Part shown: positions 7,300 through 29,920 of the stretch, one piece after another | How the letters are laid out: every line of letters begins with the position of its first letter | Position numbering within the stretch: the stretch's first letter is position 1 | Assembly: GCF_018885265.1 (NCBI RefSeq) | Contig: NZ_CP076538.1 | Span: forward strand, 6,360,001 to 6,424,000 | From: Amycolatopsis aidingensis | GTDB lineage: Bacteria; Actinomycetota; Actinomycetes; Mycobacteriales; Pseudonocardiaceae | Direction: 5' to 3' | Length of the DNA: 64,000 nucleotides | Position numbers and translations under genes: made by a program | Notes under the pieces: generated by a model | Database searches by the model: none | Told to the model about the DNA's origin: nothing | The model's input: only the letters and a program-made list of their open reading frames with translations

Positions 7300-8360
7300 G
7301 GTTCACCCCTCGGGAAGCGGCTGGTCGGTGGGCGTGGTGGGAGTGGTGCCGGAGCGGCGAGTTCTGCGGGCGCTTGCTGGCTGGTGGTCGAGGTCGACGG
7401 CTGTATCGACGGCTGCGTGGTCTGCGTCGTGTCGGTGTGGGGCCAGAGTTGGGCGAGCTCGACGAGCCGGAGTCGGCCGGGCCGTCGCGCGGATGGGCCA
7501 GAGATCGGGAGCCACCGGGCGACGGCGGGGTTGTTCTCACCGGCCACGCCCGCGACGTCCGCAGCGCTGGTGGCCACCGGCACCAACGTGGGACGGTCCA
7601 GTTGGGACAGGGCGTCGGTCAGTGCGTGACGTGCGGAGGTTTCACGCCGGTTGGTGGGCAGCCACACGAGGACGGGTGTGGTGATTCCGGTCGTGGTGGC
7701 GAGCCTTTCGTAGCCATGGAGCTTGCTCGCGAGCGTGCCGAGGTCCTCGGTGCCGAAGTCGAATTCGAGGAAGAACTCGATCTCGTGGCCGTCTTCGCGC
7801 CAGCGGCCGTAGGCATCGGGGCGGGCCATGTCGCCGAAGTGCCGGCCGCAGCGCAGCTCGGACCACCACGCGGTCAGGCGTCCGCGGGCGCAGGGGCGGC
7901 GGCTGAGCGCGACGAGGGTGCTGAAGAAGCCGTTGACGCCGACGGTGTGGGCCAGGCGCAGCGAGTGCGCGATGCCGATCGCGTCCTCGTGACGGTAGGC
8001 GAGTTTCTTGGGGTCGAGGCCGTCTTCGTAGGCCAGGGCGACCGCTCCGGCGATGTCGAGCACGTAGTGCATCGGCGCGGTGCCGGAGGTCACGAACGGT
8101 TGGAACCGGTCGACCACGCGCCACTTGAACAGGTCGAGCAGGCGGTGGTTGGCCGCGCGTGTGGTCGGGAACGCCATCTCGACGAGTTGCTGGGTGGTGA
8201 ACACCCTGTGCTCGTGCAGCATCCGGACCAGCCACCGGTCCCGGAGGGTGAGTCGCCCGGCGAGGTGGGCGTGGTGCTCCCCGGTGGTGGCTGCCCGTGG
8301 CGTGGGGCGTTGGGGCATGTGGCCGCGCAGCGCCCGCTGCGGTGTCGGATTCGTAATCAT
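7296..8360 (-). CDS. Replication-relaxation family protein
   Basis: 354 residues from ATG 8360; its stop overlaps the transglycosylase start by 4 nt. The N-terminal winged helix (RDRWLVRMLHEHRVFTTQQL … TRAANHRLLDLFKWRVVDRF) and the following FDFGTEDLGTLASKLHGYE segment match the Replic_Relax family of actinobacterial plasmids and conjugative elements. The family is thought to act in plasmid replication or DNA relaxation, and some members are proposed as non-canonical relaxases. No other relaxase is visible in the element, so this is the best candidate for DNA processing. The tail is Pro/Thr-rich and probably disordered. Confidence 0.85.
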   Translation of the reverse strand: MITNPTPQRALRGHMPQRPTPRAATTGEHHAHLAGRLTLRDRWLVRMLHEHRVFTTQQLVEMAFPTTRAANHRLLDLFKWRVVDRFQPFVTSGTAPMHYVLDIAGAVALAYEDGLDPKKLAYRHEDAIGIAHSLRLAHTVGVNGFFSTLVALSRRPCARGRLTAWWSELRCGRHFGDMARPDAYGRWREDGHEIEFFLEFDFGTEDLGTLASKLHGYERLATTTGITTPVLVWLPTNRRETSARHALTDALSQLDRPTLVPVATSAADVAGVAGENNPAVARWLPISGPSARRPGRLRLVELAQLWPHTDTTQTTQPSIQPSTSTTSQQAPAELAAPAPLPPRPPTSRFPRGEP

Positions 8361-14352: not shown

Positions 14353-15573
14353 CTACCTCCTCGCTGGGTTGTCGTAGTCGTCGGCGTCCTCGGCGTCCTC
14401 GGCGTCGTCGAAGTCGTCGTCCCAGGCGTCCTCGCCGTCGGGGAACTCGTCGGCGGCAGTGAACACCGAGTGGCCGAACGCGGTGGTGTCCCAGCCTTCG
14501 TCCGGTGCGGTGGTGATGACCTCGTCCGCCCCGGCCAGCCACGCGGTCGGCGGGATCAGCGAGTCCGGGTTGCACGCCGCGGCGAGCACCGCGGTGGCCT
14601 GCCCGGCATCCAGTGGGGTGACTGTGATCCCGGACGGGGAGAGCAACTCGACCGCCTCGCCGAGCCGCCGCACGAGCCGGGCTTCGGCAGCCCTGCGGGT
14701 GGCCTCGTCGACCAAGACGGCCCGCTTGGCGGCCTTGCGTTTCGCGGTCAACGCCGCCAGCGGCGAGGCGCCGCCGAGCCCGTCGGTTGGGCTGCTGGTG
14801 AGTAGCGGTTCGCGCAGGATCAGCAGGACCTGGCGGCGCAGCAGGTCGGTGGCGCGGCCGAGCTGGTCGAGGTACTCGGCGTGTTCGCGCGCCGCCTGTT
14901 CCAGTGCTGGGTGCGGCAGGCCGCCGGCCTGGTCGCGGAGCTCGGCGATTTGCCCGGACAGGTCCAGTCGCTCGGCGCGGACCAGGACCTGCACCGGCGC
15001 GGTGAGCGAGTGCAGGTACCGCCCGAAGGAGGCGACGAGGGACTCTTGTTCGGCCGGGGTGCGGAGCCCGAAGTTGATCGTGGAGCAGACCGCGACTACG
15101 GCTACGCCGTCGCGGCCGAGGTCGATGACGCCGGTGTCGGTGACGGCCTCGGCGGGCAGCCGCAGCGCGGCCGGCGACACCGTCGACGCTGCGGTGCCCG
15201 CGCTGTTCTTGCCTTTGTCGCTGCCCTTGGAGTTGGTGCTCGCGACGTGGCCCAGCCACTCGGGGGCGGGACGGATGCCTTCCGGCGCGGCTACTCGGTG
15301 CTGGGGGCTCATCCGCTGCCGCAGCGCTGCGAGGACCAGCCGATCCAGGGTGATGCCGTCGCGCTGCCCCAGCGCGAGGAACGCGGCGGTCACCCCGATC
15401 GGGATGGCGACGATGAGGAACACGGCCAAGGGCACAAGCTCGCTGGTGATCGTGTACGTCCCGTACAGCACGATCCCGGTCACCGCGAGGATGAGCAGCT
15501 GACGACCGGTCAGCGGGCCGATTACCCGGTCCTCGCGATCGACGTCGGCGGGAATCCTGACGGGCTGACTCAT
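14353..15573 (-). CDS. PrgI/SCO6880-like type IV secretion membrane protein
   Basis: 406 residues from ATG 15573, overlapping the stop of the upstream gene by 4 nt. The N-terminus (RIPADVDREDRVIGPLTGRQ) followed by two close membrane helices (LLILAVTGIVLYGTYTI; LAVFLIVAIPIGVTAAFLAL) is the PrgI-family signature, equivalent to VirB3. The remaining 300 residues form a soluble domain of unknown role, ending in a very acidic tail. In Gram-positive elements PrgI-type proteins partner the VirB4 ATPase, whose gene follows directly. Confidence 0.8.
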   Translation of the reverse strand: MSQPVRIPADVDREDRVIGPLTGRQLLILAVTGIVLYGTYTITSELVPLAVFLIVAIPIGVTAAFLALGQRDGITLDRLVLAALRQRMSPQHRVAAPEGIRPAPEWLGHVASTNSKGSDKGKNSAGTAASTVSPAALRLPAEAVTDTGVIDLGRDGVAVVAVCSTINFGLRTPAEQESLVASFGRYLHSLTAPVQVLVRAERLDLSGQIAELRDQAGGLPHPALEQAAREHAEYLDQLGRATDLLRRQVLLILREPLLTSSPTDGLGGASPLAALTAKRKAAKRAVLVDEATRRAAEARLVRRLGEAVELLSPSGITVTPLDAGQATAVLAAACNPDSLIPPTAWLAGADEVITTAPDEGWDTTAFGHSVFTAADEFPDGEDAWDDDFDDAEDAEDADDYDNPARR

Positions 15574-17564
15574 TTCCCTTCACCTCCTCCTGGGGCGGGT
15601 TTCGGTGCCCGGAACATCGGCGGCGGAGCTGACTGCGTGCGCCGGTAGGCGTCGCCGATGCGGGGCTCGGGCTGCGCCTGTCGGAACGTCGGTGCTGCGG
15701 GCGGGCCCGTCGGCCTGACCGGTGGGGACGGCTGCGGCGCTGGCGGCGTGGCAGGTCGGAATTGCAGTTGCGGGGGCACCGACGCGGTGCGGATCGGGCG
15801 GGCCGGTGGCGGGGTGGCGCCGCGTCGACGCGGCTCCCCGGCGGCTTGGAATCGGGGTGCCGATCCCGGCCGCTGCCCTCGCCGTGGCGTGGGCGTGGCG
15901 GGCGTGGGTGCGGAACTGAACTCAGGAGGCATGGCTGGTCCCTGGTTCGCCGGGGTGACGGCGGGGTCGTGGGTGGGGTCTTGCGGTGTGGGCTGCAGGA
16001 ACTGCGGCGCCTGCGAGGGCAGCCGCGACCGGCGGGCCGCGCGGGTGCGCTCGGCGTCCTGGGCGGCCTGGAGCCGCTTGTTGACCATCTCCGGGGTCGG
16101 CGCGAGGCGCGGCTGCGCAGGCCACGGCGGATTCGCCGACGCACCGCCACCGCGGCCACCCCCACCACTGCCCCCGCGGGTCTTCGCGGCACCGGCGGCG
16201 CCGGTCTTGCCGAACGCCCCGGTCTTGCCGGCGACCATGCCGAAGGTCTTCGCCGCGATGTACGCACGGACGAGACCGCCGAGGAGCGAGCGCCCCGAGC
16301 TGACCTTGACTGCCTTCAGCAACCAGAACGGGATCTTGAACAGGATGAAGAACAGCGCGATGGCGGCGACCAGCGTGCCGAGCGCGGACAGCGTCGAGCC
16401 GAACAGATGCACGCCGCCGGACAGGAACGTGCGCACCGCAGTGATCAGCACCAGCGCCTGGGCCACCTGGATGCCGAGCACCGCCACGAGCGCCTTCCAC
16501 CACCAGCGGGCTAGCGGGTCGGTGTGCGGCAGCGCGTGGAACATCAGGAACAGCGGCCCGCTGATGATCAAGACGAGGGTGATGACGATCCGGACCACGT
16601 AGACGACCAGGAGGCCCAGGCCCAGTACCACGAGCACGAGGCCGACGAGGATGATGAACAGCCCGCCGGTGGCGATGCCCGCAACCGCCTCCTCCAGGGT
16701 GCTGCCCAGCGAGGGCGCGTTCACCCCGTTGCCGAGGATGCCCAGGGTCAGGCCGTTGGCCAGTCGGATGAGCTTGTCGGCGAAGAACAGCGACAGCGCC
16801 GAGGCCACGAATGCGATCGGGATCCGAGGGCCGATCTCCTTGATCGAGTAGCGCCCCTGCAGGCTCTCGTGCCCCATCACGACGATGCCGCCGAGGAGGA
16901 TGAGCAGGCCGTAGGCGGCGACCACGATCTCCCACGAGTTGTTCCACAACTCACCGATGCCGGGCAGGTCGCTGATCGTCGGCGTGGACAGCGCGGTGTG
17001 CCCGATCAGATCCAGGATCGGTGAGAGGGCGGCGTCGACGACGCTACGGAACGCCGAGTTGATGGCCTCGGTGATGCAGGCGCCGATGTCGGTGATGCCG
17101 CAGTCCGAGTCGTCCTCGCCGCTGCCGGTGCCGGGCTCCTGCGGGTCGGTGTTCGGCGGCGGTGTGGTCGGCTGCGGGATGCAGTCCTCACCGGTGCACG
17201 GCGTGGTCGGCGCTGGCGACGACGGCTGGGCAGGCGTGGTTGGTGCTGGGGGCGCCGGTAGGGGCGGTGTGGGAGCCGGAGCACAGGGGATCGGCCGCGG
17301 ATCAGGGCCTGAGCAAGGGTCGGGTTGCGGTGTGGTCGGCTGCGCCGAGGCGCTCACCGTGAGGAGGAGGCCGGCCAGGAGCACGACGATGCTCAGCGCC
17401 AGCATCAAGCCCGCGCGCCAGCGCCGCGACCGACCGGTCGGCGGCCGGTCGGCGCTGGCGCCGGAGGCCGAGGAGAGCATCGCTCGGTCCGCGGCGGCAG
17501 CAGTCTCGACCCGGCCGCCGGACCGGCGGTGCGGGCGAACCGTGGGCGGAGTGCTGACGGCCAT
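15570..17564 (-). CDS. VirB6/TrbL-like polytopic channel protein
   Basis: 664 residues from ATG 17564. A membrane helix at about 50-72 is followed by a long Pro/Thr-rich extracellular stretch, then about seven hydrophobic segments between residues 190 and 430 (for example LLILLGGIVVMGH, GGLFIILVGLVLVVLGLGLL, LVAAIALFFILFKIPFWLLK). The C-terminal 230 residues are Pro/Arg/Gln-rich and cytoplasmic. This arrangement fits the VirB6/TrbL channel component of actinobacterial conjugative systems. It lies 3 nt downstream of the pilin-like gene and overlaps the PrgI-like gene. Confidence 0.8.
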   Translation of the reverse strand: MAVSTPPTVRPHRRSGGRVETAAAADRAMLSSASGASADRPPTGRSRRWRAGLMLALSIVVLLAGLLLTVSASAQPTTPQPDPCSGPDPRPIPCAPAPTPPLPAPPAPTTPAQPSSPAPTTPCTGEDCIPQPTTPPPNTDPQEPGTGSGEDDSDCGITDIGACITEAINSAFRSVVDAALSPILDLIGHTALSTPTISDLPGIGELWNNSWEIVVAAYGLLILLGGIVVMGHESLQGRYSIKEIGPRIPIAFVASALSLFFADKLIRLANGLTLGILGNGVNAPSLGSTLEEAVAGIATGGLFIILVGLVLVVLGLGLLVVYVVRIVITLVLIISGPLFLMFHALPHTDPLARWWWKALVAVLGIQVAQALVLITAVRTFLSGGVHLFGSTLSALGTLVAAIALFFILFKIPFWLLKAVKVSSGRSLLGGLVRAYIAAKTFGMVAGKTGAFGKTGAAGAAKTRGGSGGGGRGGGASANPPWPAQPRLAPTPEMVNKRLQAAQDAERTRAARRSRLPSQAPQFLQPTPQDPTHDPAVTPANQGPAMPPEFSSAPTPATPTPRRGQRPGSAPRFQAAGEPRRRGATPPPARPIRTASVPPQLQFRPATPPAPQPSPPVRPTGPPAAPTFRQAQPEPRIGDAYRRTQSAPPPMFRAPKPAPGGGEGK

Positions 17565-17567
17565 CGG

Positions 17568-18095
17568 TCAGGCCCCCACGATCCCTTTGAGGACCTCCAC
17601 GACCAGCGGCGCCAGCGCCGCCAGCCCATAGCCCCACCCAGCGGACTTGAACGCGGTCTTCGCCTTCTCGACCTCGCCGGGATCGCCGCCGCCCATCACG
17701 TAGCGAACCCCGCCGATGGACAGGAACACCGTCGCGAGACCCGCGAGGATGCCCATGATCCAGTTGCGGACGTTGTTCAGCACGGTGGTCACCGAGTCCG
17801 CGAGCGCGAGCACTACGACATCGGCGTGGGCCGTGGCCGTCGTTGTCGACGCGGTCAGCGCGAGTGCCAGAGCCGCGATCTCGACGACCAGCAGGGACCG
17901 GCGCGCACGCCTCGCTCCGGACTTGCGGCCGAACGCAGTCATCGGAGCGCTGGAAGGTACGTGGCGGGTGGACTCCGGTGGCACACACGGCGTCGCCGAG
18001 GGGGCCGGGGACTGTGACGGGGACTGCGGGCGGCCGTCGGGGCGGGTGCGGCGGGGCTGAACCGCGGCGGTCGGGAAACGAGCAATCAGGCGCAT
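17568..18095 (-). CDS. VirB2/TrbC pilin-like membrane protein
   Basis: 175 residues from ATG 18095, with GGAGGT 7 nt upstream; the inner ATG 17942 has no ribosome-binding site. A proline-rich basic leader of about 50 residues is unusual. Then come a signal-like helix (SLLVVEIAALALALTASTTT, with AHA before the mature part) and two hydrophobic segments (IMGILAGLATVFLSIGGVRYV and GYGLAALAPLVVEVLKGIVG), as in VirB2/TrbC pilins. The start overlaps the end of the preceding gene by 10 nt. A conserved 33-nt element lies 45 nt before its ATG. Confidence 0.75.
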   Translation of the reverse strand: MRLIARFPTAAVQPRRTRPDGRPQSPSQSPAPSATPCVPPESTRHVPSSAPMTAFGRKSGARRARRSLLVVEIAALALALTASTTTATAHADVVVLALADSVTTVLNNVRNWIMGILAGLATVFLSIGGVRYVMGGGDPGEVEKAKTAFKSAGWGYGLAALAPLVVEVLKGIVGA

Positions 18096-19063
18096 TGGGG
18101 CACCTCCAGAGGTCGGGCGGAACGCGGGTGTCCCCCGCAGCCCTGAACTCCGGATTTCGGGCCCGTTTTGGACATGCGACCCTGAACTTTTTGCGCCGAA
18201 TCGACCTCGACGGGCGACACGGACAGTGACGAACGAGCGGCGTCCCGGACTGGCGCGGGCGCCTGCGCCAAGGCCAGCGAGGTGACGACCTGGTCGGTCA
18301 GTGGATCGGTCGGGTCGTCGGAGACGGCGCCGTCACGCAGGTAGGCGACCAACCGGAGCTCGGCACGTTTGCGCGCCTTGTAGACCGCCCACTCGCCGGT
18401 CTGATGCCAGGCCGCCCAGTCAGCGACGGGCACCTCTTCCAACCGGGTCGCGCCGATCAGCGCAGCCTCGGTCGGGGTCAGGACTCCGTCCGCCACAGCG
18501 CGGGCGAGGACCAGATCCGGATGCCCCCACGGCGGGTGCGGCGGGGTGGATCGGAAGCCCGGCGCGACTGGAGTCGGACCCGCGAGCGCTTCCTCCAGAG
18601 CCTGATAGCCGGACCGGTACGCCTCCCATCGCAGCCGCAGCATGATCCGCGGCGGACGCAGGTCGACGGTCGACAACGCGGCCAGGAAGCCGCGCACCAC
18701 CTCGGCGTGCACGTCGGCCGGATCGCCGGCGAACCGGTCGGTCAAGGTGGCCGCGACAGAGGTCAGCGCGGGCAGCGCAACCCCGACCGCGGCGACCGTC
18801 CAGGTCGCTCCTTCAGTACGGGAGCGCAGCACCAGATGCGCCCACACCGCGTCCCGCGTCGCCTGGGGGCAGCGGCGAGCCAGCAGCTGGTCGCGGACCT
18901 CGTCCAGCGGGATGTGCCGGGCGGGCAATCCGGGAAACAACCGGCCGTTCAGTGACAGCGGATCCGGTCCGGTCACCAGCCAGGTAAACGTATCCCGCGC
19001 GACGTCCAACGAGTTCGGAACAGCGTCGTCATCACCGCGACGAAAAACGGATTGTGCAGCCAT
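18086..19063 (-). CDS. Conserved element protein with sigma-like C-terminal helix-turn-helix
   Basis: 325 residues from ATG 19063 (GGGAG upstream; the 17 codons before it look non-coding). No family recognised with confidence. Residues about 195-265 (GHPDLVLARAVADGVLTPTE, then AALIGATRLEEVPVADWAAW, then KARKRAELRLVAYL) resemble the sigma-70 region-4 type helix-turn-helix of hypothetical proteins that open conjugation operons of actinobacterial elements. Its last codons are made from the 33-nt element repeated upstream of the opposite operon. As the first gene of the transfer operon next to the inverted-repeat region, a regulatory or origin-binding role is plausible but inferred. Confidence 0.6.
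   Translation of the reverse strand: MAAQSVFRRGDDDAVPNSLDVARDTFTWLVTGPDPLSLNGRLFPGLPARHIPLDEVRDQLLARRCPQATRDAVWAHLVLRSRTEGATWTVAAVGVALPALTSVAATLTDRFAGDPADVHAEVVRGFLAALSTVDLRPPRIMLRLRWEAYRSGYQALEEALAGPTPVAPGFRSTPPHPPWGHPDLVLARAVADGVLTPTEAALIGATRLEEVPVADWAAWHQTGEWAVYKARKRAELRLVAYLRDGAVSDDPTDPLTDQVVTSLALAQAPAPVRDAARSSLSVSPVEVDSAQKVQGRMSKTGPKSGVQGCGGHPRSARPLEVPQCA
18141..18173 (-). promoter_or_regulatory. 33-nt leader element, copy A
   Basis: On the minus strand this stretch begins GTCCAAAACGGGCC and ends CCGGAGTTCAGGG. A near-identical copy lies at 19548-19580 on the plus strand. The distance from its end to the pilin-like ATG (18095) is 45 nt, against 42 nt for copy B. It lies inside the 3' end of the preceding CDS. 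Operator or RNA leader element of unknown role. Confidence 0.6.
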
Positions 19064-19131
19064 GTCGTGACTCCCACGGCGTCGATGCGAACAACAACGA
19101 CGCCAGGAAGCCACGGCGGCTACTACGGAAA

Positions 19132-19311: not shown

Positions 19312-19547
19312 GCCCTCCAGGCCCTCCGTGGTCGCCATCCCGAGCAGGGGCTTCAAGATCAATAGTAGATCGCGGGGAAAATCTTGAAAAATCCGCCGGT
19401 GGCCGGCCCGGGACTGCCCCGGAGAGGCTCACAGTGCCTGCGCAAGGCACGGTTTCCCCGTCCCCAAAGAATGCACAATCAAGGGTATTTCCACGAGCGC
19501 GTGTCGGTAGCCCCGGCAAGGTTGGGTCAACGAATTTTCGGAGGCGT

Positions 19548-19580
19548 GTCCAAAAACGGGCCAAAAAACGGAGTTCAGGG
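19548..19580 (+). promoter_or_regulatory. 33-nt leader element, copy B
   Basis: Begins GTCCAAAAACGGGCC and ends CGGAGTTCAGGG; about 27 of 33 positions agree with copy A on the other strand. It ends 42 nt before ATG 19623. Present in mirror orientation, so each divergent operon carries one copy in the leader of an early gene. Confidence 0.6.
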
Positions 19581-19622
19581 GTGTCAGAACGCACAGCACC
19601 CACCCGTCGGAGGAGACCCAAC

Positions 19623-20627
19623 ATGACCCCGACCCACGGCTCCGGCTCACCAGGAGACCGCTCCCCGGAGCACAACCAGCCCGACCCGACCACGCCCGTG
19701 CCGCTGCCACGGACCCCGCGGACCGAGCGCCTGCGCGCCCTACGTCTCGCGCTTGGCCACCCCCGACCGCCGCGCCCGAGCACCGTCTGGCCCTGCGCCG
19801 GGGACGACCTTCACAAGGGCACCGGCGTGATCGCCAACTGGCTGCTGACCGCGGTCATCAAGATCGTCACCACCTACACCCAACCCGGCCAGCGCGTCCT
19901 GCTGCTCGCCCCCTCACCGTTCGGCGGATCGCCGCGCTCCCACCCGCCGGCCACAGTCCGGACCAGGCTCCAGCACGGCCCGTATGACGGCCTGCTCGAA
20001 GCCGGCTGGACCGTGGTCCGACTCGGCCGCGGCATCCAGACCCAGACCGCCGGAGCACCCCCCGAAGCTGACACTGACCACCCCACCGACCACCTCGTCA
20101 ACCCGACCGTCGAGTCCGCGTCCGGACCCCGACCGCACCCCGACAGTCCGGACCCCGACGACCACGCCCGGCCATCCCCGACCGGCCGTCCCGGTCCGGA
20201 CCGGCGGCCGACCGGACAGGGTCCGGACCGCTTCGCCCTGATCATCACCGCCGCCGAGCCACCGACCCTGGACTGGCTCCGGCCGACCGACTGGGCCAAC
20301 GCCCTCACCCCGACCGGCGCCCTCACCATCATCACCCATAGTGACCACTCGCGAGGTCGGCTCGGCGACCCGGCCGGGCCGGTGGTGACCGCCGCGCACC
20401 ACGCCGGACTGCGCTACCACGACCGCATCGCACTGCTGCGCGTCCCCGTCCGCAACGGCGCACTCGCCGACAGCCCCGTCGATGCCGGTGGCCCGTCCCG
20501 GCCCCCACACGGACCCCTGACGGCCCCCGTCCGGCACACCCAGGCGCACGACGACCTCCTCGTGTTCACGCGGCACGAACAGGCCCCGAGCGGCGCCGTC
20601 GGCGGCGAGGAGACCTCCGATGACTAA
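19623..20627 (+). CDS. Methyltransferase-like protein with degenerate SAM site
   Basis: 334 residues from ATG 19623, with GGAGGAG upstream; first gene of the rightward operon. The protein appears to be a divergent relative of its downstream neighbour: VIKIVTTYTQPGQRVLLLAP aligns with AAHAIATYTHPGDLVLDPDC there, but the glycine-rich SAM loop is replaced by LLLAPSPFGG. The middle (about residues 145-215) is a Pro/Asp-rich low-complexity insert. The C-terminus (HDDLLVFTRHE) mirrors HREVLVFELAHD of the neighbour. Probably a non-catalytic partner subunit; this is inference from sequence comparison within the window. Confidence 0.6.
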   Translation: MTPTHGSGSPGDRSPEHNQPDPTTPVPLPRTPRTERLRALRLALGHPRPPRPSTVWPCAGDDLHKGTGVIANWLLTAVIKIVTTYTQPGQRVLLLAPSPFGGSPRSHPPATVRTRLQHGPYDGLLEAGWTVVRLGRGIQTQTAGAPPEADTDHPTDHLVNPTVESASGPRPHPDSPDPDDHARPSPTGRPGPDRRPTGQGPDRFALIITAAEPPTLDWLRPTDWANALTPTGALTIITHSDHSRGRLGDPAGPVVTAAHHAGLRYHDRIALLRVPVRNGALADSPVDAGGPSRPPHGPLTAPVRHTQAHDDLLVFTRHEQAPSGAVGGEETSDD

Positions 20628-21561
20628 CCATCCGACGGGGCCCTGGCCGCTCCCCCTGCCGCCGGGGGAGGAGCCGCCGATGCCGCCGCTGTCGGTCTGG
20701 CCGACCGGCCAGCGCGACCCGGCCGCGCAGCTGCGCGAGGCCGGCTGTGTGCCCGGCACCGAGACCGACATCGACCTGATCCCGCCCGCCATCGCCGCCC
20801 ACGCGATCGCCACCTACACCCACCCCGGCGACCTCGTCCTCGACCCCGACTGCGGGGCTGGCACCGTCCTCGTCGAGGCACTGCGCGCAGGCCGCCACAC
20901 GCTCGGGTTGACCGCCCGCCACCGGTGGTGGACCCTCGCCCGCGCCAACATCACCGCCACCAAGGCGGCAGGCGCCTGGCGCGACGGGTCGGTCCTCGAC
21001 GCCCGCCCGACGCTGCTGGCCACCATCCGCGCCGCCGGTCTCGTCGGCCGTGTCGGGCTCGTCCTGACCGCCCTGCGCACGCCGACCGGAGACGACGCAC
21101 TCGGTCCGGACCACGACTCCAGCTCGGCGTTCGATGAGCAGCTGTCCGCGACGGTGCGCTACTGCGAACCGCTGTTGCGCTCAGGTGGGCACCTCGTGGT
21201 CGTCGCCCACCCCCGCCGGCACCCGGACGGCGCACTGGCCGACCTGGCCACTCGCCTGATCACCGCCGGGGCGTCCGCCGGTCTGGTGCCCGTCGAGCGG
21301 TGCCTCGCGTTGACCGCGGCCCTGCGCGGCAGGCGGCTGATCACCCGCGCGTCGTTCGCCGAACGCCGGGCCGCCGCTCGCGCTAAGGGAGCACCCATCG
21401 CGCTCACCGCACATCGCGAAGTGCTCGTCTTCGAACTCGCTCACGACGCCGAACTGGCCGCTGCGGCAGCCGGCACCTCCTGGCCGGACGACGCGGTCGC
21501 GGCGCCGCGACAACGCACCATCGGAGCCGCTTACCGACCGGACGGGAGGCGAGCCGCATGA
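20620..21561 (+). CDS. SAM-dependent methyltransferase, TRM11/DNA-methylase-like
   Basis: 313 residues from ATG 20620, overlapping the previous gene by 8 nt. Residues about 55-85 (IAAHAIATYTHPGDLVLDPD, then CGAGTVLVEALRAGRHTLGL) form SAM motif I of the DPxCGxGT type used by N6-adenine/N4-cytosine DNA methylases and TRM11-like enzymes. The expected (D/N/S)PP(Y/F) catalytic motif is not present; the matching strand reads RVGLVLTALRTPTGD. Either the catalytic motif has diverged or activity depends on a partner. Substrate unknown; the context suggests DNA of the element. Confidence 0.65.
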   Translation: MTNHPTGPWPLPLPPGEEPPMPPLSVWPTGQRDPAAQLREAGCVPGTETDIDLIPPAIAAHAIATYTHPGDLVLDPDCGAGTVLVEALRAGRHTLGLTARHRWWTLARANITATKAAGAWRDGSVLDARPTLLATIRAAGLVGRVGLVLTALRTPTGDDALGPDHDSSSAFDEQLSATVRYCEPLLRSGGHLVVVAHPRRHPDGALADLATRLITAGASAGLVPVERCLALTAALRGRRLITRASFAERRAAARAKGAPIALTAHREVLVFELAHDAELAAAAAGTSWPDDAVAAPRQRTIGAAYRPDGRRAA

Positions 21562-22343
21562 CCACCCGCCTGTATTGCCGCGAGTGCGGCTGGCACCCCG
21601 TGTTCCGAGGCAAGCGCACCGCGCTGCGCGCCGCCGCCCGGCACCACTGCGCCACCACACCGCTGGCCGATACCACCCCGCGGCGGTGGTCCTGGTCCCG
21701 GCTGTGGACGTACCTGTTCGGTACCTCGCCGACCGCGGCGGAAAACGTCACCGAGGACGCCACGAGCGGCGACCGGGCGACCGACGCCGCCGAGTTCGTC
21801 GACACCTACGGCAGCCGCATCCAGTGGGCCGTGCTCGCCGCGCACCACGCCGAGACCACCCGCCGGGCCCGAGCGGCGATGGTCGAACTCGTCCGCGCTG
21901 GCTACCAGATCGGGTCCCCGCCCTACGGCTACCGAGCCCTGCGCATCCGCGTCACAGACCCGACCGGACACAGCAAGCTCCGCGCCGTCCTCGTCCCGGA
22001 CTGGCAGACCGCCGCGGTCGTCAAGCAGATCTTCGCCTGGCGCGCCGACCACGGGCTCGGGTTCGCCGCCATCGCGGCGCGGCTCAACAGCAACCCACGC
22101 CAATATCCGCCTCCAGCCCGGTCGGGACGGTGGAACGCGCAGGCCGTGCGGCGCGTCGTCACGAACCCCAAGTACCTCGGCCGGCAGGTGTGGGCGCGTA
22201 CCGTCGCCGGTCGCCCGGCCCCGGTCGAGCAGTGGGTCACCTCCGCGCCGAGGGTGCACGAGCCCCTCGTTGACGAGCGCACCTTTCGTCAAGCCCAGCC
22301 AGGGCACCCGATCGGGGGAGGCAACCATGGCCTCCCAGCGTGA
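21558..22343 (+). CDS. Recombinase-domain protein lacking the resolvase catalytic domain
   Basis: 261 residues from ATG 21558, overlapping the previous stop as ATGA. An N-terminal zinc-finger-like stretch (LYCRECGWHP … RHHCA) and a 60-residue linker precede the 'Recombinase' DNA-binding domain of large serine integrases (GYQIGSPPYGYRALRI … VVKQIFAWRADHGLGFAAIA … WNAQAVRRVVTNPKYLGRQV). The resolvase domain with catalytic Ser is absent and no room exists for it. It could bind the attachment sites and act as a directionality factor or competitor of the full-length recombinase at 28229; that is inference. Confidence 0.75.
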   Translation: MTTRLYCRECGWHPVFRGKRTALRAAARHHCATTPLADTTPRRWSWSRLWTYLFGTSPTAAENVTEDATSGDRATDAAEFVDTYGSRIQWAVLAAHHAETTRRARAAMVELVRAGYQIGSPPYGYRALRIRVTDPTGHSKLRAVLVPDWQTAAVVKQIFAWRADHGLGFAAIAARLNSNPRQYPPPARSGRWNAQAVRRVVTNPKYLGRQVWARTVAGRPAPVEQWVTSAPRVHEPLVDERTFRQAQPGHPIGGGNHGLPA

Positions 22344-23877
22344 CCTCCGCCGGCATTCCGGTGCCGAGCGTGAACTGGTGATCGGCTCCCTATGCACCGG
22401 ATACGGTGGACTGGATCTCGGCGTGCTCGCCGCGCTCGACGGCGGACGCACCGCATGGGTCGCCGATCCCGACCCCCACATTCGCGCCGTCCTCGCCACC
22501 CGGATGTCCGGCGTACCGAACCTGGGCGACATCACCACCGTCGACTGGAACCAGGTCGAACCCGTTGACGTGCTCACCGCCGGGTTTCCATGTCAAGACA
22601 TCAGCGCAGCCGGCCGCGGCGCCGGTATCAGGAAAGGAACTCGCAGTGGAATCTGGCACCAAGTCGTCGCGGCCGTTCGCCATCTACGACCGGCGATGCT
22701 CGTCGTGGAGAACGTCGCCGCACTCCGCTGGCGCAAGGGCGGCCTCGACGTCGTACTCGGCGACCTGGCCGAAGTCGGGTATGACGCGCACTGGACAAGC
22801 GTTCGAGCGTCCGACATCGGCGCGCCTCACCGGAGGGAGCGCGTTTTCCTCCTCGCCTATCCGGCCGGAACCCGCTTCACCGCATGGCCTACCGACCCCG
22901 CTGGCACGGGACTGGAAGCCAGCGAGCCCGGCGGATCCTGGGCGGCAGGCACGTCACGGGACCAATCTACCCACCGCCGTCTCGGAGCTGTTGCCGACCC
23001 CGCAGGCGCGAGACGACACCCGAATGGGGTGCTCACCGGCCTCTCGGAAAGCGCGGGGGCATCAGGTGAACCTGCCCGACGCGGTGACGACGTTCCTGCC
23101 AACCCCGGCGAGCAGCAATCCCAACGACGGCGAGGGCCCAACCGACTGGCTAGCGCGGCGCGCCCGGCACCAGGCCCGGAAGATCAACGGCAATGGGATG
23201 GGGATGCCACTGTCGATCGCGGTTCGGTTGCTGCCGACTCCTCGGGCCAGCGACACCGGCACTCCGGGTCGGCGAGCGGGCACGGGATTCCGTCCGCCAC
23301 TGTCGCAGGAGGTGCTGCCGCTGTTCCCGACTCCTCGCGGAACAGAAGGTACGAAAGGCAGCCCGAACCAGCACGGCTCGAAGGGCGATTTGACCTTGTC
23401 CTCGGCGGTGGTCCGGCTGCGGGCGACGGCCCGAGCCGGAGTCAGCCGCAACAGCCAGGCCGCCGTGAAGATCTACGGCTCCGGGCCGGGAGCGCAGCAC
23501 GCGGTCGAGATCGCCGTGGAGCCTCCTCCCACAGAACAAGTGGCATAGGCCAAGACTCCACCAGCACACCAGCCAGTGTCGACTGGGGCACCTATGAAGC
23601 GGCCATCCGGCGCTGGGAGGCCGTTCTCGGCGTGGCCGCTCCGCATCCGACCGAACCGAACAGAAACGGCCGCGCCCGGCTATCCCCGGCCTTCGTCGAG
23701 TGGTTGATGGGCCTCAGCGCCGGCTGGGTGACCGACGTTGAGATTCCCCGCACTGCCCAGTTGAGAGCTCTCGGAAACGGGGTCGTTCCACAACAGGCGG
23801 CGTTCGCCGTCCACCTGATGCTCGCCGACCTCCTCGCCCTTGACGCCGAACATCGGGAAGGGTCACGAGCGGCATGA
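22327..23877 (+). CDS. C5-cytosine DNA methyltransferase, centre in a shifted frame
   Basis: The frame from ATG 22327 (GGGGAG upstream) carries motif I (LCTGYGGLDLG), motif IV with the catalytic Cys (AGFPCQDISAAG), motif VI (VVENVAALRW), motif VIII (GAPHRRERVF) and motif X (LRALGNGVVPQQAAF). Between about 22866 and 23546, however, the +1 frame has the better codon bias and the LLPTPxAxD repeats typical of actinophage-type C5 methylases (LPTPLARDW, LLPTPQARD, FLPTPASSNPND, LLPTPRASD, LFPTPRG). The annotated frame stays open there but looks non-coding. Two compensating frame changes, in the DNA or the assembly, are the simplest reading. The stop overlaps the next ATG (ATGA). Confidence 0.75.
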   Translation: MASQRDLRRHSGAERELVIGSLCTGYGGLDLGVLAALDGGRTAWVADPDPHIRAVLATRMSGVPNLGDITTVDWNQVEPVDVLTAGFPCQDISAAGRGAGIRKGTRSGIWHQVVAAVRHLRPAMLVVENVAALRWRKGGLDVVLGDLAEVGYDAHWTSVRASDIGAPHRRERVFLLAYPAGTRFTAWPTDPAGTGLEASEPGGSWAAGTSRDQSTHRRLGAVADPAGARRHPNGVLTGLSESAGASGEPARRGDDVPANPGEQQSQRRRGPNRLASAARPAPGPEDQRQWDGDATVDRGSVAADSSGQRHRHSGSASGHGIPSATVAGGAAAVPDSSRNRRYERQPEPARLEGRFDLVLGGGPAAGDGPSRSQPQQPGRREDLRLRAGSAARGRDRRGASSHRTSGIGQDSTSTPASVDWGTYEAAIRRWEAVLGVAAPHPTEPNRNGRARLSPAFVEWLMGLSAGWVTDVEIPRTAQLRALGNGVVPQQAAFAVHLMLADLLALDAEHREGSRAA

Positions 23878-24482
23878 CAACTCAGCCACCATCGACTGCG
23901 GAGTCTCGTGAAACCGGAAGCCGGATTCGAACCGGTCAACGGCCCCAAGGACAACCACGCCCGGCGCGGCGGGGACGCAGGCTTGCGGAGGCGGTCCTGC
24001 TCGCAAGCTATCCAGCGGCCATCGTGGCGGCCAATTGGGCCACGACCCTCTGGCCAGCGGTCGCCGTCGCGACCCTGCGGATTCCCGCCGGGGCATTCGT
24101 CGCCGGTCTGGTATTCACCCTGCGCGACCTCGTGCAGGAGGCCCACGGCACGCGGACAGCGCTCCTCGCGATCGCCGCCGGGGCGGCGATGTCCGGGCTG
24201 GTCGCGTCACCGCGCATCGCGCTGGCCAGCGCGGCGGCGTTCGCCGTCTCTGAACTGGCTGACTTCGCCGTTTACACCGCGCTGCGCCGCCGAAATCGGA
24301 TCGTCGCGGTTGGCCTGTCGAACGCGGTCGGGCTGCTCGTCGACAGCCTGCTGTTTCTGCCGCTCGCGTTCGGCTCGCTGGCCTACCTGAGCGGCCAGGT
24401 CACCGGGAAGACCGCCACCACGCTCCTCGCTGTCGTGGTACTTGCAGGCGTCCGCGCACCCCGGAAGGCGGCGTTGACGTGA
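23874..24482 (+). CDS. VUT/YhhQ-type 7-deazapurine (queuosine precursor) transporter
   Basis: 202 residues from ATG 23874, overlapping the methyltransferase stop as ATGA. After a basic 38-residue leader there are about five membrane segments, including AEAVLLASYPAAIVAANWAT, LRIPAGAFVAGLVFTLRDLVQE, GLVASPRIALASAAAFAVSE and AVGLSNAVGLLVDSLLFLPL. The Arg-Asp of FTLRDLVQE and the SE-L-DF motif (VSELADFAVY) are typical of the VUT family (YhhQ), known importers of preQ0/preQ1. No preQ0 biosynthesis gene is nearby, so the transporter would supply the base for the DpdA-like enzyme encoded next. Confidence 0.8.
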   Translation: MTTQPPSTAESRETGSRIRTGQRPQGQPRPARRGRRLAEAVLLASYPAAIVAANWATTLWPAVAVATLRIPAGAFVAGLVFTLRDLVQEAHGTRTALLAIAAGAAMSGLVASPRIALASAAAFAVSELADFAVYTALRRRNRIVAVGLSNAVGLLVDSLLFLPLAFGSLAYLSGQVTGKTATTLLAVVVLAGVRAPRKAALT

Positions 24483-25267
24483 AGTTCTTCCTCGGCATCC
24501 ACCAGCCCATCTGGTTGACCCGTGTGCGGGACATTCCGCTGCTGGTCTCGCACCGACGGCTCGGCCACCGGCGCACCCTGCCCAGGGCTGTCACTGAATG
24601 GGCGCTCGACTCCGGTGGGTTCACCGAGCTGCAGCTCCACGGCCGCTGGCAGACCGACGAGCACAGCTACGTCCGGGCGGTCCGCCGCTACGCCGACGAG
24701 ATCGGCAACCTCACCTGGGCCGCGCCCCAGGACTGGATGTGCGAACAACACATTCTCAAGCGCACCGGCCTGACCATCCGCGAGCACCAACGGCGGACGG
24801 TGCGCAACTTCCTCCGCCTTCGCGAACTGGCGCCCGACCTTCCTACCCTCCCCGTGTTGCAGGGCTGGACCGCCGCGGACTACCAGCGCTGCGCTGATCT
24901 TTACGAACTGTCCGGGATCGACCTGGCATCCGAACCGCTTGTTGGAATCGGGACAGTGTGCCGTCGTCAGCATCGAGCTGACGTGGAACACATCGTGCGG
25001 ACCTTCGCGTCCCGCAACCTTCGCCTACACGGGTTCGGCGTCAAGATCGGCGGCATCGGCCGGTACGCTGAGGCACTCTCCAGCTCGGACTCCGCATCCT
25101 GGAGCAGGCGTGGCCGCTACGTCCCCGGATGCGGTCCGAGCCACCGCACCGAGTCGAACTGCCTGCGCTTCGCGCTGAGCTGGTACCGACAGATTCACTC
25201 CACGCTGGCTTCGGCCGGAGCGTCCGCGGAAGACATGTCCCCCAGTCCCTCGGCGAGGGTCGCATGA
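24479..25267 (+). CDS. dpdA: DpdA-like DNA 7-deazaguanine transglycosylase
   Basis: 262 residues from GTG 24479, overlapping the transporter stop as GTGA. The protein is a compact tRNA-guanine-transglycosylase paralogue: WALDSGGFTEL matches the DSGGF substrate-binding motif of TGT, followed by AAPQDWMCE, LPVLQGWTAADY, LVGIGTVCRRQ, LRLHGFGVKIGG and SSDSASWSRRGR, where the Asp corresponds to the TGT nucleophile region. Homologues of this short type (DpdA2) in actinophages exchange guanine in DNA for preQ0-type bases. The C-terminal Cys group is reduced to two Cys (PGCG … ESNC). Coupling to a deazapurine transporter supports the assignment. Expected product: deazaguanine-modified element DNA. 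Confidence 0.8.
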   Translation: MKFFLGIHQPIWLTRVRDIPLLVSHRRLGHRRTLPRAVTEWALDSGGFTELQLHGRWQTDEHSYVRAVRRYADEIGNLTWAAPQDWMCEQHILKRTGLTIREHQRRTVRNFLRLRELAPDLPTLPVLQGWTAADYQRCADLYELSGIDLASEPLVGIGTVCRRQHRADVEHIVRTFASRNLRLHGFGVKIGGIGRYAEALSSSDSASWSRRGRYVPGCGPSHRTESNCLRFALSWYRQIHSTLASAGASAEDMSPSPSARVA

Positions 25268-25298: not shown

Positions 25299-25580
25299 TC
25301 ATTGCTCGCCGCGCGGCTCGGCGTTGTCCGGCTCGCCGACGAGCGACACCTCGCGTGGCGTGTCGATCCCGAACAGCTCGTTCGGTGTACATCGCAGCGT
25401 TGTACACAGCGCCTGCAGCGTCGCCATCTTCACCTGGACCGGCTGCTTCTTCATCAGGTCGGACACCGCCTGGAGGGACAGCTCATACCCCGCCCGTTGG
25501 ATGAGCAGCTCGCGCAGCTCCTTGGTGGCCCAGACGTCACGGGAGGCCATGACCTTCCGCAGCCGCCACTCGATCCGCAC
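25299..25580 (-). CDS. XRE-type helix-turn-helix regulator
   Basis: 93 residues from GTG 25580, with GGAAGG about 8 nt upstream. The whole protein is one helix-turn-helix domain of the Cro/CI type (TKELRELLIQRAGYELSLQA, then VSDLMKKQPVQVKMATLQAL), followed by LRCTPNELFGIDTP, as in HTH_26 regulators. It is convergent with the modification operon and faces a 27-bp palindrome at 25730-25756 upstream of its start. Likely the switch regulator of the element. Confidence 0.8.
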   Translation of the reverse strand: MRIEWRLRKVMASRDVWATKELRELLIQRAGYELSLQAVSDLMKKQPVQVKMATLQALCTTLRCTPNELFGIDTPREVSLVGEPDNAEPRGEQ

Positions 25581-25729
25581 CTGCTGCCTTCCCACGCTCG
25601 TCCCCGAGGCGCTCCGCGCCGTCGCCAACCGACACACAGTGTCCCCGATGCTCTGCCGAAGCTGGCCACAGCACCTCCCGGCGTGTTCGGCAGACACCCA
25701 ATCCAACAAGCATCACTCGAAGATTCGCG

Positions 25730-26286: not shown

Positions 26287-27601
26287 GAATACTGACCCCC
26301 TGGTTCCGCTTGGGTTCCAGTGCTTGTCGCAACACTCCTGGTAGAAGAGGGCGTGCTGATGGCGAGGCGTGGAGCGAAGCGGCGGCTGGATCTTGAGTCG
26401 CGGTACTGGCAGTTGATCCTGTCGGGGGTAGGGACGGTCGAGGCGTGCCAGATCATCGGGATCGGCCGTAAGACCGGCTACCGCTGGCGGGCGGAGAACG
26501 GCGGGCTCCCACCTGCGTTGGTCGCCGAGGAGGCCCGTTCGAGCCGATATCTGTCCCGGTCCGAACGGCAGCGGATCGCCACCCTGCGGGCCCAGAAACT
26601 GTCGATCCGGGAGATCGCGCGGCGGATTTGCCGTCACGCTTCCACGGTCAGCCGGGAGCTGCGCCGCAACGTCCGGCCGCATGATCAAGGGCGCTACGAC
26701 GCTGACCTGGCGCATTCCCGGGCCCGGCAACGTGCGCGTCGGCCGCGCCAGGCTCGGTTGATCCAGGATTCGCAGCTGCGGGCGGCCGTGCAGGCGAAGC
26801 TTGAGCTGGAGTGGAGTCCCGAGCAGATCGCCAACTATCTGCGGTCCGCTTTCCCTGATCACGCCAGCTGGCACGTGTGCCACGAAACGATCTACCAAGC
26901 GCTCTACCACGGTGGCAAGGGCGGTCTGAGCCGCCGGCTCACGCAGCGTCTGCGTACCGGCCGGGCGTTGCGCAAGCGTCGCCGCCGCGCTGATCAGCGA
27001 CGGAGCCGGTTCGTCGCGCCCACTCTGCTGATCGAGCACCGCCCGGCGGCGGCCCACGAGCGGACCCGCGTTGGTGATTGGGAAGGTGACCTCATCGTGG
27101 GCCGCGGCAACCAGTCGGCCATCGCCACCCTTGTCGACCGCTCCAGCCGCCTCCTGCGTCTGGTTCACCTGCCCGGCAACCGCGGCGCCGACACGGTCCG
27201 CGACGCCCTGATCGCTGTCCTGGGCGCCCTTCCCGAAGCAGCGCGACTGACGTTGACCTGGGACCAAGGATCCGAAATGGCCTACCACGAACAGATCGCA
27301 CCGCTGCTGCGTGAAGGTGTGTTCTTCGCGCACCCAGGAAGTCCATGGCAGCGCGGCACGAACGAGAACACGAATGGCTTGCTGCGCCAGTACTTTCCCA
27401 AACGCACCGACCTCGCGATCCATACGCCCGAGCACCTCGGCATGGTCGAGCACAAGCTCAACCACCGGCCACGCAAGACACTCGGATGGCGGACACCCGC
27501 CGAGGTCTTCCACAACGCCGTGGCATCATAGACCCCGTCACCGTTGCGACGACCGCTCGAATTCGCCCTGGAACCCAAGCGGACCAGGCGGGTCACGATT
27601 C
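26287..27601 (+). mobile_element. IS30-family insertion sequence
   Basis: Imperfect terminal inverted repeats of about 28 bp lie at 26293-26320 and 27568-27595, sharing CCGCTTGGGTTCCAG; the match can be extended outward by GAAT/ATTC to 26287 and 27601. The single transposase gene fills the interior. No clear target duplication was found at either boundary. Confidence 0.8.
26359..27531 (+). CDS. IS30-family transposase
   Basis: 390 residues from ATG 26359. The N-terminal part has the IS30 helix-turn-helix (SRSERQRIATLRAQKLSIRE followed by IARRICRHASTVSRELRRN), then SPEQIANYLRSAFPD and CHETIYQALY. The DDE catalytic core shows the first Asp in RVGDWEGDLIVG, the second in LTLTWDQGSEMAYH and the Glu in GTNENTNGLLRQYFPK. 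Length and motif order are those of intact IS30 transposases, so the copy may be active. Confidence 0.93.
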   Translation: MARRGAKRRLDLESRYWQLILSGVGTVEACQIIGIGRKTGYRWRAENGGLPPALVAEEARSSRYLSRSERQRIATLRAQKLSIREIARRICRHASTVSRELRRNVRPHDQGRYDADLAHSRARQRARRPRQARLIQDSQLRAAVQAKLELEWSPEQIANYLRSAFPDHASWHVCHETIYQALYHGGKGGLSRRLTQRLRTGRALRKRRRRADQRRSRFVAPTLLIEHRPAAAHERTRVGDWEGDLIVGRGNQSAIATLVDRSSRLLRLVHLPGNRGADTVRDALIAVLGALPEAARLTLTWDQGSEMAYHEQIAPLLREGVFFAHPGSPWQRGTNENTNGLLRQYFPKRTDLAIHTPEHLGMVEHKLNHRPRKTLGWRTPAEVFHNAVAS

Positions 27602-28228: not shown

Positions 28229-29920
28229 ATGGCGCGATCCGCAACCGCGCAGCGTACGAAGAAAGCTGCGATGACCACGCTGGGCGAAGACGTGCGGGTC
28301 GGCGTCTACGTCCGGCGCTCCACCGACGACGAACATCAACCCTACTCGATCGAGGCCCAAGACACCCGTCTGGCCGCCTACATCGACTCCCAACCCGGCT
28401 GGCGCCTCGTCAAACGATTTCCCGACGACGCCTCGGGCGCAAGCATCGACAAGCGGCCCGGCCTGGCCAAGGCGATAGCCGCGGCCCGAGCCGGCCTCAT
28501 CGACGTCCTCCTCGTCTACCGAGTCGATCGCTTCAGCCGCAACCTGCGCGACATGGTCACCCTGCTCGACGAACTGGACCAAGTCGGCGTCGTGTTCCGC
28601 TCGGCCACCGAGCCATTCGACACCAGCACACCGATGGGACGGATGCTGGTGCAGATGCTCGGCATGTTCGCCCAGTTCGAACGCGACACCATCATCGACC
28701 GGGTCATCGCCGGCATGGAACGCAAGGCATCCAAGGGAAAATGGAAAGGCGGGCGCCGTCCCTTCGGCTACACCGTCAACAAGGACACCCACCAGCTCAT
28801 CCCGCACAAGGACGAAGGGGCGATCGTCCGGTTGATCTTCGAGCTGTACACGCGCAAGCGTCTCGGCGGCAAGGTCATCGCCCGCGTTCTTAACGAACGT
28901 GGGCACCGGACCACTACCGGCGGCCGGTGGTCGTCCTACCAAGTGCTGCGCGTCCTAGCCAACCGCGTCTACATCGGCGAACTGAACTTCCGCGGCATCG
29001 CCACCACCGACTGCCACGACGCCATCGTTGACCTGGACGACTTCGAGAAGGCTCAGCAGATCCTGGCCGCTCGCGGTGAGGATTACAGCCACCGTGCCGC
29101 CAACGGCTCGGATTACCAACTCACCGGCAAGATGCGCTGCCCGAAGTGCAACAAGGCCATGATCGGTACCCGCGCCCACGGCAAGACCAAGATCTACCGC
29201 TACTACACCTGCTTTAACAGGTCCCGCTACGACACCGACAAGTGCGACGCCACCCGCATCAACGCCGACGCCATCGAACCCGCGGTGCTCGACGCGCTCA
29301 GCAGCTTCTACCGCGACCATCACCGCCTCATCGCCGACGCGATCACCCGCGCCCAGGCTCAACACCTCGCCGGAGAAGACAACCAACGCGCCGAACTCGC
29401 CACCATCGAAGCCGAACTCACCAAGACCAACCAAGCCATCGACCGCTATCTGGGCGCCTTCGAAAACGGCACCCTGGACGAAGAAGACCTCGCCAGCCGA
29501 CTCGCCACCCTCAAGACCAAGACCAAGCAACTCCGCACCCGCCGCGACGAACTCGCCGATCAGCTCACCGACGCCCCGCAGCCACTCCCGAAGGAGGCAC
29601 TCGCCAACATCGCCAACCACATCTCCGAGATCATCGCCAGCGGCACCGACAACCAACGCAAGGCCCTTATCGAGACCCTGATCGCCGAGATCAAGATCAC
29701 CGCAGCCGACCGCATCGTGCCCGTCTTCCGCATCCCCCAACCGCGAGCAGAAGAAGCCCCCCTCAACGCCACAGAAGCCCCAACCAGAGCAAAAACCCTG
29801 GCCAGAGCCTCTAAGGAAGGAGTTCGTGCAATGACTAATTTGGTGGAGCTGAGGGGAATCGAACCCCTGACCTTCTCGATGCGAACGAGACGCGCTACCA
29901 ACTGCGCTACAGCCCCTTGA
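28229..29920 (+). CDS. Large serine recombinase (integrase) of the element
   Basis: 563 codons from ATG 28229, with AAGGAG upstream. The resolvase domain has VYVRRSTDDE with the catalytic Ser, YRVDRFSRNLRDM and GRMLVQMLGMFAQFERD. The 'Recombinase' domain follows (GGRRPFGYTVNKD … GRWSSYQVLRVLANRVYIGE), then a zinc ribbon (CPKCNKAM … YYTC … DKC) and a coiled coil (about 385-475). The natural end is unclear: the frame runs through the whole tRNA-Ala gene on the opposite strand and stops 4 nt beyond it. Catalyses site-specific integration and, with a partner, excision. Confidence 0.92.
   Translation: MARSATAQRTKKAAMTTLGEDVRVGVYVRRSTDDEHQPYSIEAQDTRLAAYIDSQPGWRLVKRFPDDASGASIDKRPGLAKAIAAARAGLIDVLLVYRVDRFSRNLRDMVTLLDELDQVGVVFRSATEPFDTSTPMGRMLVQMLGMFAQFERDTIIDRVIAGMERKASKGKWKGGRRPFGYTVNKDTHQLIPHKDEGAIVRLIFELYTRKRLGGKVIARVLNERGHRTTTGGRWSSYQVLRVLANRVYIGELNFRGIATTDCHDAIVDLDDFEKAQQILAARGEDYSHRAANGSDYQLTGKMRCPKCNKAMIGTRAHGKTKIYRYYTCFNRSRYDTDKCDATRINADAIEPAVLDALSSFYRDHHRLIADAITRAQAQHLAGEDNQRAELATIEAELTKTNQAIDRYLGAFENGTLDEEDLASRLATLKTKTKQLRTRRDELADQLTDAPQPLPKEALANIANHISEIIASGTDNQRKALIETLIAEIKITAADRIVPVFRIPQPRAEEAPLNATEAPTRAKTLARASKEGVRAMTNLVELRGIEPLTFSMRTRRATNCATAP
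29841..29916 (-). tRNA. tRNA-Ala(CGC), attachment-site target
   Basis: The minus strand folds as a cloverleaf: acceptor GGGGCTG/CAGCTCC including the G3-U70 pair that identifies alanine tRNAs, D arm GCGC/GCGC, anticodon loop TTCGCAT (anticodon CGC), T arm CAGGGGTTCGATTCCCCT, and an encoded CCA at 29843-29841. The element abuts its 3' end, so the tRNA spans the right attachment site. Confidence 0.95.

Follow-up and report, generated by a model that had tools for sequence, protein, structure and literature searches.

We report that a T4SS (type IV secretion system)-bearing element of Amycolatopsis aidingensis encodes, in two overlapping genes, a Vut_1/YhhQ-type transporter and DpdA, a base exchanger of the tRNA-guanine transglycosylase (TGT) superfamily. 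The pair lies in a 64,000-nt stretch (NZ_CP076538.1, positions 6,360,001 to 6,424,000 of a 7.66-Mb single-contig genome), hereafter the window, whose coordinates we count from its first letter. There is good support for the transporter and DpdA acting as one functional module, and it is likely, judging from the sequence, that this module puts a 7-deazaguanine into DNA. With somewhat more reserve, we favor the view that it is a translationally coupled salvage-and-insert module that would make the DNA of the element resistant to restriction.

The transporter-DpdA pair

The two genes close a run of six overlapping + strand open reading frames (ORFs), starting at 19434, 20620, 21558, 22327, 23874 and 24479, the last three of which are:

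22327..23877, + strand: C5-cytosine methyltransferase (C5-MTase) ORF, 516 aa (PF00145, E 3.5e-32; PHROG 116 over residues 14-509; substitution pattern)
23874..24482, + strand: Vut_1/YhhQ-type transporter, 202 aa, six long predicted helices (PF02592; model)
24479..25267, + strand: DpdA, TGT-superfamily base exchanger, 262 aa, with a GTG start within the transporter stop overlap

A preliminary description of the window had placed these three ORFs here, joined by exact 4-nt stop/start overlaps, and had named their families; both points hold, with Pfam scores of 112.6 bits (PF00145), 58.8 bits (PF02592, cut-off 27.2) and 261.5 bits (PF23859, cut-off 27, E 1e-77). The DSGGF, LQGW and HGFGVK motifs that it listed are all found in DpdA. 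The predicted structure of DpdA has a TGT-type fold, and the two checks that had been proposed for the 262-aa protein, profile and fold, agree in placing it in the TGT/DpdA superfamily. A sequence search of the PDB gave 0 hits with the DpdA alignment and one unrelated-looking match (E 0.04) with the single sequence. The transporter model (pLDDT 86.2) has helices at residues 30-59, 72-91, 93-110, 113-137, 142-166 and 172-201; a fold search with it returned nothing at E 0.001 and a weak likeness to ECF S-components.

Scanning 84,980 species by pattern, with one genome each, yielded 208 relatives; the locus counts given here refer to the best 80 of these 208, each spanning at most 8 kb upstream. 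Across 45 aligned DpdA sequences (the window and 44 picked from the 80 loci), residues D44, S45, G46, G129, H184, G187, K189, D204, H222 and C228 are invariant; D44 and D204 would be the counterparts of the two catalytic aspartates of TGT. The rows closest to the window DpdA are from Pseudonocardiaceae, and the same DpdA family is present on phages and plasmids.

Vut_1 stands directly upstream of DpdA in 30 of the 80 loci, a few of them almost identical to one another. A script recognized 29; the other is L039, which has a broken DpdA. An exact 4-nt overlap with the transporter stop is possible from a start codon in 28 of these 30 loci (L039 and L090 lack it, and L026 has an additional 1-nt option). 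The association extends to 390 genomes of the host family, where DpdA was found in 99, Vut_1 in 66 and both in 61, against an expected 66 x 99 / 390 = 16.8 (Fisher p 1e-38, a value that overstates independence since the genomes are related). At 60 of the 75 Vut_1 places in these genomes DpdA follows within 300 bases on the same strand, and of the remaining 15 places, eight have a QueC gene no more than 7 kb away. This second kind of locus, with Vut_1 less than 7 kb from QueC and no DpdA directly downstream, was seen in G057, G065, G071, G072, G079, G187, G188 and G230. On a tree of 83 distinct DpdAs (89 rows, identical ones merged), the presence of the transporter requires at least six gains or losses, implying repeated origin or loss of the association. 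Phages show it too: nine phage records matched, and in each of the six opened a TGT/DpdA-type gene lies at most three genes from Vut_1. In phiLM21 this gene is a PF23859 DpdA; in StevieRay, Aoka, Pam5, RHph_X2_30 and RHph_N3_2 it is another TGT/DpdA-type gene.

The window's own genome holds one DpdA and one Vut_1, the transporter described here. A search for TGT (PF01702) found no match in it and was positive in 14/14 controls. The only QueC candidate, a single 25.7-bit match over 58 residues in an ORF that by eye resembles asparagine synthase, was rejected. A PTPS/QueD-family gene is present (79.6 bits), with neighbors that by eye are dehydrogenase-like and glycosyltransferase-like and not queuosine genes. 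The preliminary description had stated that the element lacks preQ0 synthesis genes, and own-genome searches, which did not cover QueE and QueF, indeed found neither QueC nor QueD on it. Its further proposal, that the transporter belongs with DpdA, is strongly supported by a host devoid of TGT, of a credible QueC and of any other Vut_1, and by DpdA being held by 61 of the 66 family genomes with Vut_1. TGT exceeds its cut-off in six of the 390 genomes, one of which (G065) is among the 57 genomes that carry the pair. With Vut_1 linked to DpdA or QueC and TGT rare, the transporter of this family goes with DNA-type deazaguanine genes and not with tRNA queuosine.

Source of the base and competing explanations

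In the mechanism that we infer, Vut_1 would import a 7-deazaguanine base (preQ0 or preQ1) into a cell that mostly has no synthesis of its own, the base coming from other soil organisms or from synthesis by some hosts. DpdA would then swap the imported base for guanine in DNA, and this modification, together with the methylase-like genes beside the T4SS, would let element DNA resist restriction. Protection of the element as it transfers is what this arrangement suggests most naturally, and it is also the weakest step. T4SS conjugation transfers one strand; marks made in the donor would thus be on one strand only, and the genes would also have to be expressed early in the recipient.

The DNA of phages containing deazaguanine resists restriction enzymes (PMC6884629). 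The preliminary description had called the combination little described, which stands for T4SS elements: we found no account of a transporter-DpdA pair on them in the literature searched, whose reach mostly excluded subscription papers, and the word "queuine" is absent from the available portions of a survey of actinobacterial integrative and conjugative elements (PMC3218068). The link between such transporters and DNA deazaguanine genes had been noted earlier (PMC5372724, PMC6884629, PMC11888242). Zallot et al. (2017) noted COG1738 in TGT-less bacteria with deazapurine DNA genes (PMC5372724), Hutinet et al. (2019) reported YhhQ in some phages with no correlation to a group (PMC6884629), and the GATOR-GC preprint gives YhhQ in ~9% of dpd islands (PMC11888242). 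The GATOR-GC search demanded dpdA with dpdB (PMC11888242) and would thus miss the DpdA family of the window.

Several observations weigh against salvage and insertion. The transporter scores 48.8 bits against TIGR00697 (queuosine precursor transporter), just below the cut-off of 50.95, and it could have a different purine as substrate. QueC (E 1e-10) is commoner in genomes with the pair, 22/57 versus 52/333 in the others (Fisher p 2e-4). Some hosts may therefore make preQ0 themselves; the 35 of 57 pair-bearing genomes without QueC would depend on uptake. In addition, no Vut_1 is visible in the stretches examined for 50 of the 80 DpdA loci, and phmmer searches with the proteins of one plasmid (its DpdB truncated at its start) found no QueC, QueD, QueE or DpdB in any of the 80, so that many DpdA genes persist with no visible source of base. 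Finally, Mycobacterium phage Orion, which has DpdA only, contains no deazaguanine in its DNA (PMC6884629), and mycobacteriophages make up 391 of the 399 phage matches, at ~45-51% identity among the matches listed, where Orion does not figure. The Orion result fits a missing precursor; it does not establish that such enzymes are active.

The 50 loci with no Vut_1 in view, found among L022-L091, include an 11-member group from Streptosporangiaceae and Thermomonosporaceae.

The Orion phage and the DpdA genes that lack a visible base source also favor a rival explanation, in which the pair is a relic or has a different purine as its substrate: the transporter would import another compound and DpdA would leave DNA unaltered. 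This would agree with the functionally mixed nature of COG1738 (PMC5372724, section 2.4) and with the fragmentary DpdA matches, some with internal stops, in some family genomes. The invariance of active-site-type residues, the conserved overlap and the recurrence of the association in unrelated elements argue against it, and we hold it to be improbable.

A defense role, in which the module would mark the DNA of the host and DNA lacking the mark would be destroyed by a linked nuclease, would recall dpd islands, which carry their own restriction operon (PMC11888242), and a Mrr-type endonuclease gene (PF04471, 36.2 bits) does lie at 5405-6196 of the window. We consider this role decidedly unlikely: the Mrr-like gene was set aside as a partner of the module since it occurs in 0/10 related stretches (reaching at most 20 kb upstream of the transporter), DpdB has no match in the 80 loci, where dpdD-K were not searched for, and DpdA has no PADLOC match. 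That DpdA modifies tRNA, substituting for the missing TGT, is highly unlikely given a DpdA profile match of E 1e-77 in a genome where the TGT profile PF01702 finds nothing, and given the presence of the same DpdA family on phages and plasmids.

Deazaguanine DNA has so far been tied to phages and dpd islands. If salvage and insertion hold, a conserved conjugative lineage combining import with insertion would bring hypermodified self-marking into conjugation and account for DpdA working in organisms without queuosine. In soil actinobacteria, some probable conjugative elements directly couple an enzyme of the DNA-base-exchanger type to a probable base importer. As the pair is small and self-contained, the function of singleton DpdAs can be addressed directly in a laboratory host.

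Methylase genes and a second reading frame

The preliminary description had treated the C5-MTase as a fixed partner of the pair, a view that we abandon: among the 80 loci, a script placed it upstream of the pair in 10, L039 makes an eleventh, and 13 have it anywhere in view, and the middle third of its gene is conserved in another frame. The search for the same three-gene order elsewhere led us to reject the triad as a conserved unit, the methylase being absent between the same neighbors in the nearest relatives, L012-L020.

The PF00145 match covers residues 20-180. The two ends of the gene, unlike its middle, are conserved as coding sequence in the main frame: in the N-terminal part the third codon position changes fastest in 11/11 comparisons, as it does in the C-terminal part in the 9/9 that reach it. 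Over the middle ~600 nt it is the first position of the methylase codon that changes fastest, in 10/11 comparisons, as expected if the +1 frame there is under selection. The contrast in this region is clear in seven of 11 (L034, L031, L030, L033, L028, L023 and L027) and intermediate in L040; L024 and L029 show it weakly and L042 not at all. The +1 frame of this region carries LPTP repeats:

22877..23548, + strand: LPTP-repeat region, +1 frame, inside the C5-MTase gene (part of ORF 22406-23548; codon-position GC, substitution pattern, alignment score, frame count)

For 11/11 relatives the +1 frame gives the highest alignment score over the middle region, with small margins for L003 and L005. 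Among 16 non-duplicate loci with both parts detectable, a count that excludes six loci in which a part was missing, the two loci of the window itself and one duplicate, the repeats are in the +1 frame in 14, in the +2 frame in two and in the main frame in none, and a single ORF spans the N and C parts in 12 of the 13 loci with the C part in view. A weak synonymous-shuffle test of the LPTP frame, in which the methylase frame was open in 13/13, gave P 0.014 for the window, 0.054 for L034 and at least 0.14 for the other 11; L031 contributes only 27 codons, and the L031 and L040 shuffles never produced a stop. Of 1031 database hits, 120 were listed and 11 proteins retrieved. Six of these 11 have the repeats, by eye, in frame with both methylase halves (P0021, P0030, P0062, P0095, P0106 and P0090, the last with one end cut off); in three the repeats accompany the N half only, and in two they stand alone.

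In a single-chain C5-MTase one frame would hold every motif as well as the target-recognition region; the window gene departs from this, and its out-of-frame middle would correspond to the target-recognition region. It may yield a nested +1 product, or be reached by frameshifting, or reflect an old frame slip whose signature is still fading. If translated, a two-frame methylase would be an unusual way of keeping or varying a target-recognition domain. A more comprehensive proposal joins this to the pair: conjugative elements would mark their DNA with a base for which most of their hosts have neither a synthesis route nor another use, the transporter serving this modification alone, and the C5 methylase, where present, would be read from two frames, with a nested +1 target-recognition product joining main-frame N and C parts. 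We put this forward tentatively and regard it as doubtful in its entirety.

Three further ORFs precede the C5-MTase in the run:

21558..22343, + strand: serine-recombinase "Recombinase" domain protein (PF07508, 59.2 bits, sole family above cut-off)
20620..21561, + strand: N6/N4 DNA-methyltransferase-like protein with degenerate motif IV (PF01555, 33 bits; alignment of the window and 18 relatives)
19434..20627, + strand: probable divergent paralogue of the 20620 protein; first ORF of the run, start uncertain

TSPPY is kept in 10 of the 18 relatives of the 20620 protein; the window and the other eight have TALRT or similar in its place, so that the window copy is probably not an active methylase. 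A Pfam search with the 19434 protein gave no match, and a profile built from the 20620 protein recognizes relatives of the former in other loci; the two resemble a diverged paralogous pair. Pfam did not detect a resolvase catalytic domain in the 21558..22343 protein, whose gene is kept directly upstream of the transporter in the closest relatives.

The surrounding element and known systems

The location on a T4SS element, as originally described, is supported: T4SS-type genes adjoin the six-ORF run on its left, on the opposite strand, and include both a VirB4 ATPase and a VirD4 coupling protein (Pfam). Right of DpdA are a regulator, a transposase, which we take to be IS30-type, and a serine integrase running over a tRNA gene. 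The genes on both sides are:

5405-6196: Mrr-type restriction endonuclease-like protein (PF04471)
6325..7299, - strand: Transglycosylase (SLT) protein, putatively the T4SS wall-opening enzyme (PF01464, 29.1 bits)
7296..8360, - strand: Replication-relaxation protein (PF13814, 152.6 bits)
8492..11038, - strand: VirD4/TraD-like coupling protein (PF10412, 30.5 bits; PF01935, 32 bits)
11092-11946: PF17338 "Gene product 88" protein, between the VirD4-like and VirB4-like genes (202.9 bits; 1/10 related stretches)
12437..14347, - strand: VirB4/TraC-like T4SS ATPase (PF19044, 68.5 bits; PF12846, 40.6; PF11130, 33.1)
14353..15573, - strand: PrgI-family T4SS protein (PF12666, 74.4 bits)
15570..17564, - strand: large protein, TrbL/VirB6-like by position alone, no Pfam match (8/10 family stretches)
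17568..18095, - strand: T4SS pilin (PF18895, 70.9 bits)
18086..19114, - strand: conserved protein of the element family, no Pfam match (9/10 family stretches)
25299..25697, - strand: Cro/C1-type regulator (PF13443, 38.3 bits; relatives in 14/80 loci)
26320..27531, + strand: transposase, HTH_38 above cut-off and rve below (no match in 80 related loci)
28229..29920, + strand: serine integrase, 3' end opposite the tRNA gene (PF00239, PF07508, PF13408)
29841..29916, - strand: tRNA-Ala (cgc), probable attachment end of the element (ARAGORN)

T4SS genes of the window type flank 25 of the 80 loci, 23 of these with the transporter. Ten stretches upstream of the transporter, picked from 60 pairs in the family genomes, were compared: VirB4, PrgI, the TrbL-like protein and the pilin occur together in eight, the ninth has only the pilin and the 18086 protein, and the tenth has none of this set or the 18086 protein; VirD4 is found in 6/10. 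The 18086 protein, the two methylase-like ORFs, the transporter and DpdA form the stable cargo of these stretches, with the recombinase-domain gene (3/10) and the C5-MTase (5/10) as optional cargo. Among the proteins scanned, the Replic_Relax protein is the only relaxase candidate.

The integrase 3' end overlaps tRNA-Ala, its last codons lying opposite the tRNA gene. No second 18-nt match to the tRNA region was found in the window and 60 kb leftward, and the left attachment site and left end of the element were not found. Integration of serine recombinases at tRNA genes is described as rare (PMC3218068).

The putative split of the C5-MTase is reminiscent of M.AquI and M.EcoHK31I, natural two-chain enzymes whose parts are on separate polypeptides (PMC3404938). 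In the window gene the part out of frame is instead the middle variable region and not motif IX alone or the C-terminal part. As for the pair, a conjugative-typed plasmid of Methylobacterium sp. XJLW likewise has a Vut_1 gene in a DNA-deazaguanine cluster, arranged as dpdB-queE-queD-queC-Vut_1 (L131, NZ_CP017427.1 33248-39694); it thus includes dpdB and preQ0 synthesis genes, whereas the window element has no QueC or QueD. Dpd islands of the Salmonella Montevideo type also use a DpdA, which there inserts preQ0 in DNA, some with YhhQ (PMC11888242), and some of these islands have linked preQ0 synthesis genes; unlike them, the window DpdA family has no DpdB, QueC, QueD or QueE match nearby. The phages phiLM21 (Sinorhizobium), StevieRay (Mycobacterium) and Aoka (Arthrobacter) come close as well, with a TGT/DpdA-type gene near Vut_1 and no synthesis genes annotated in the stretches shown, although the StevieRay, Aoka and Pam5 enzymes belong to PHROG families other than that of the window DpdA. 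Unlike these phages, the window pair combines a T4SS and integrase element, a conserved 4-nt overlap and methylase-like neighbors.

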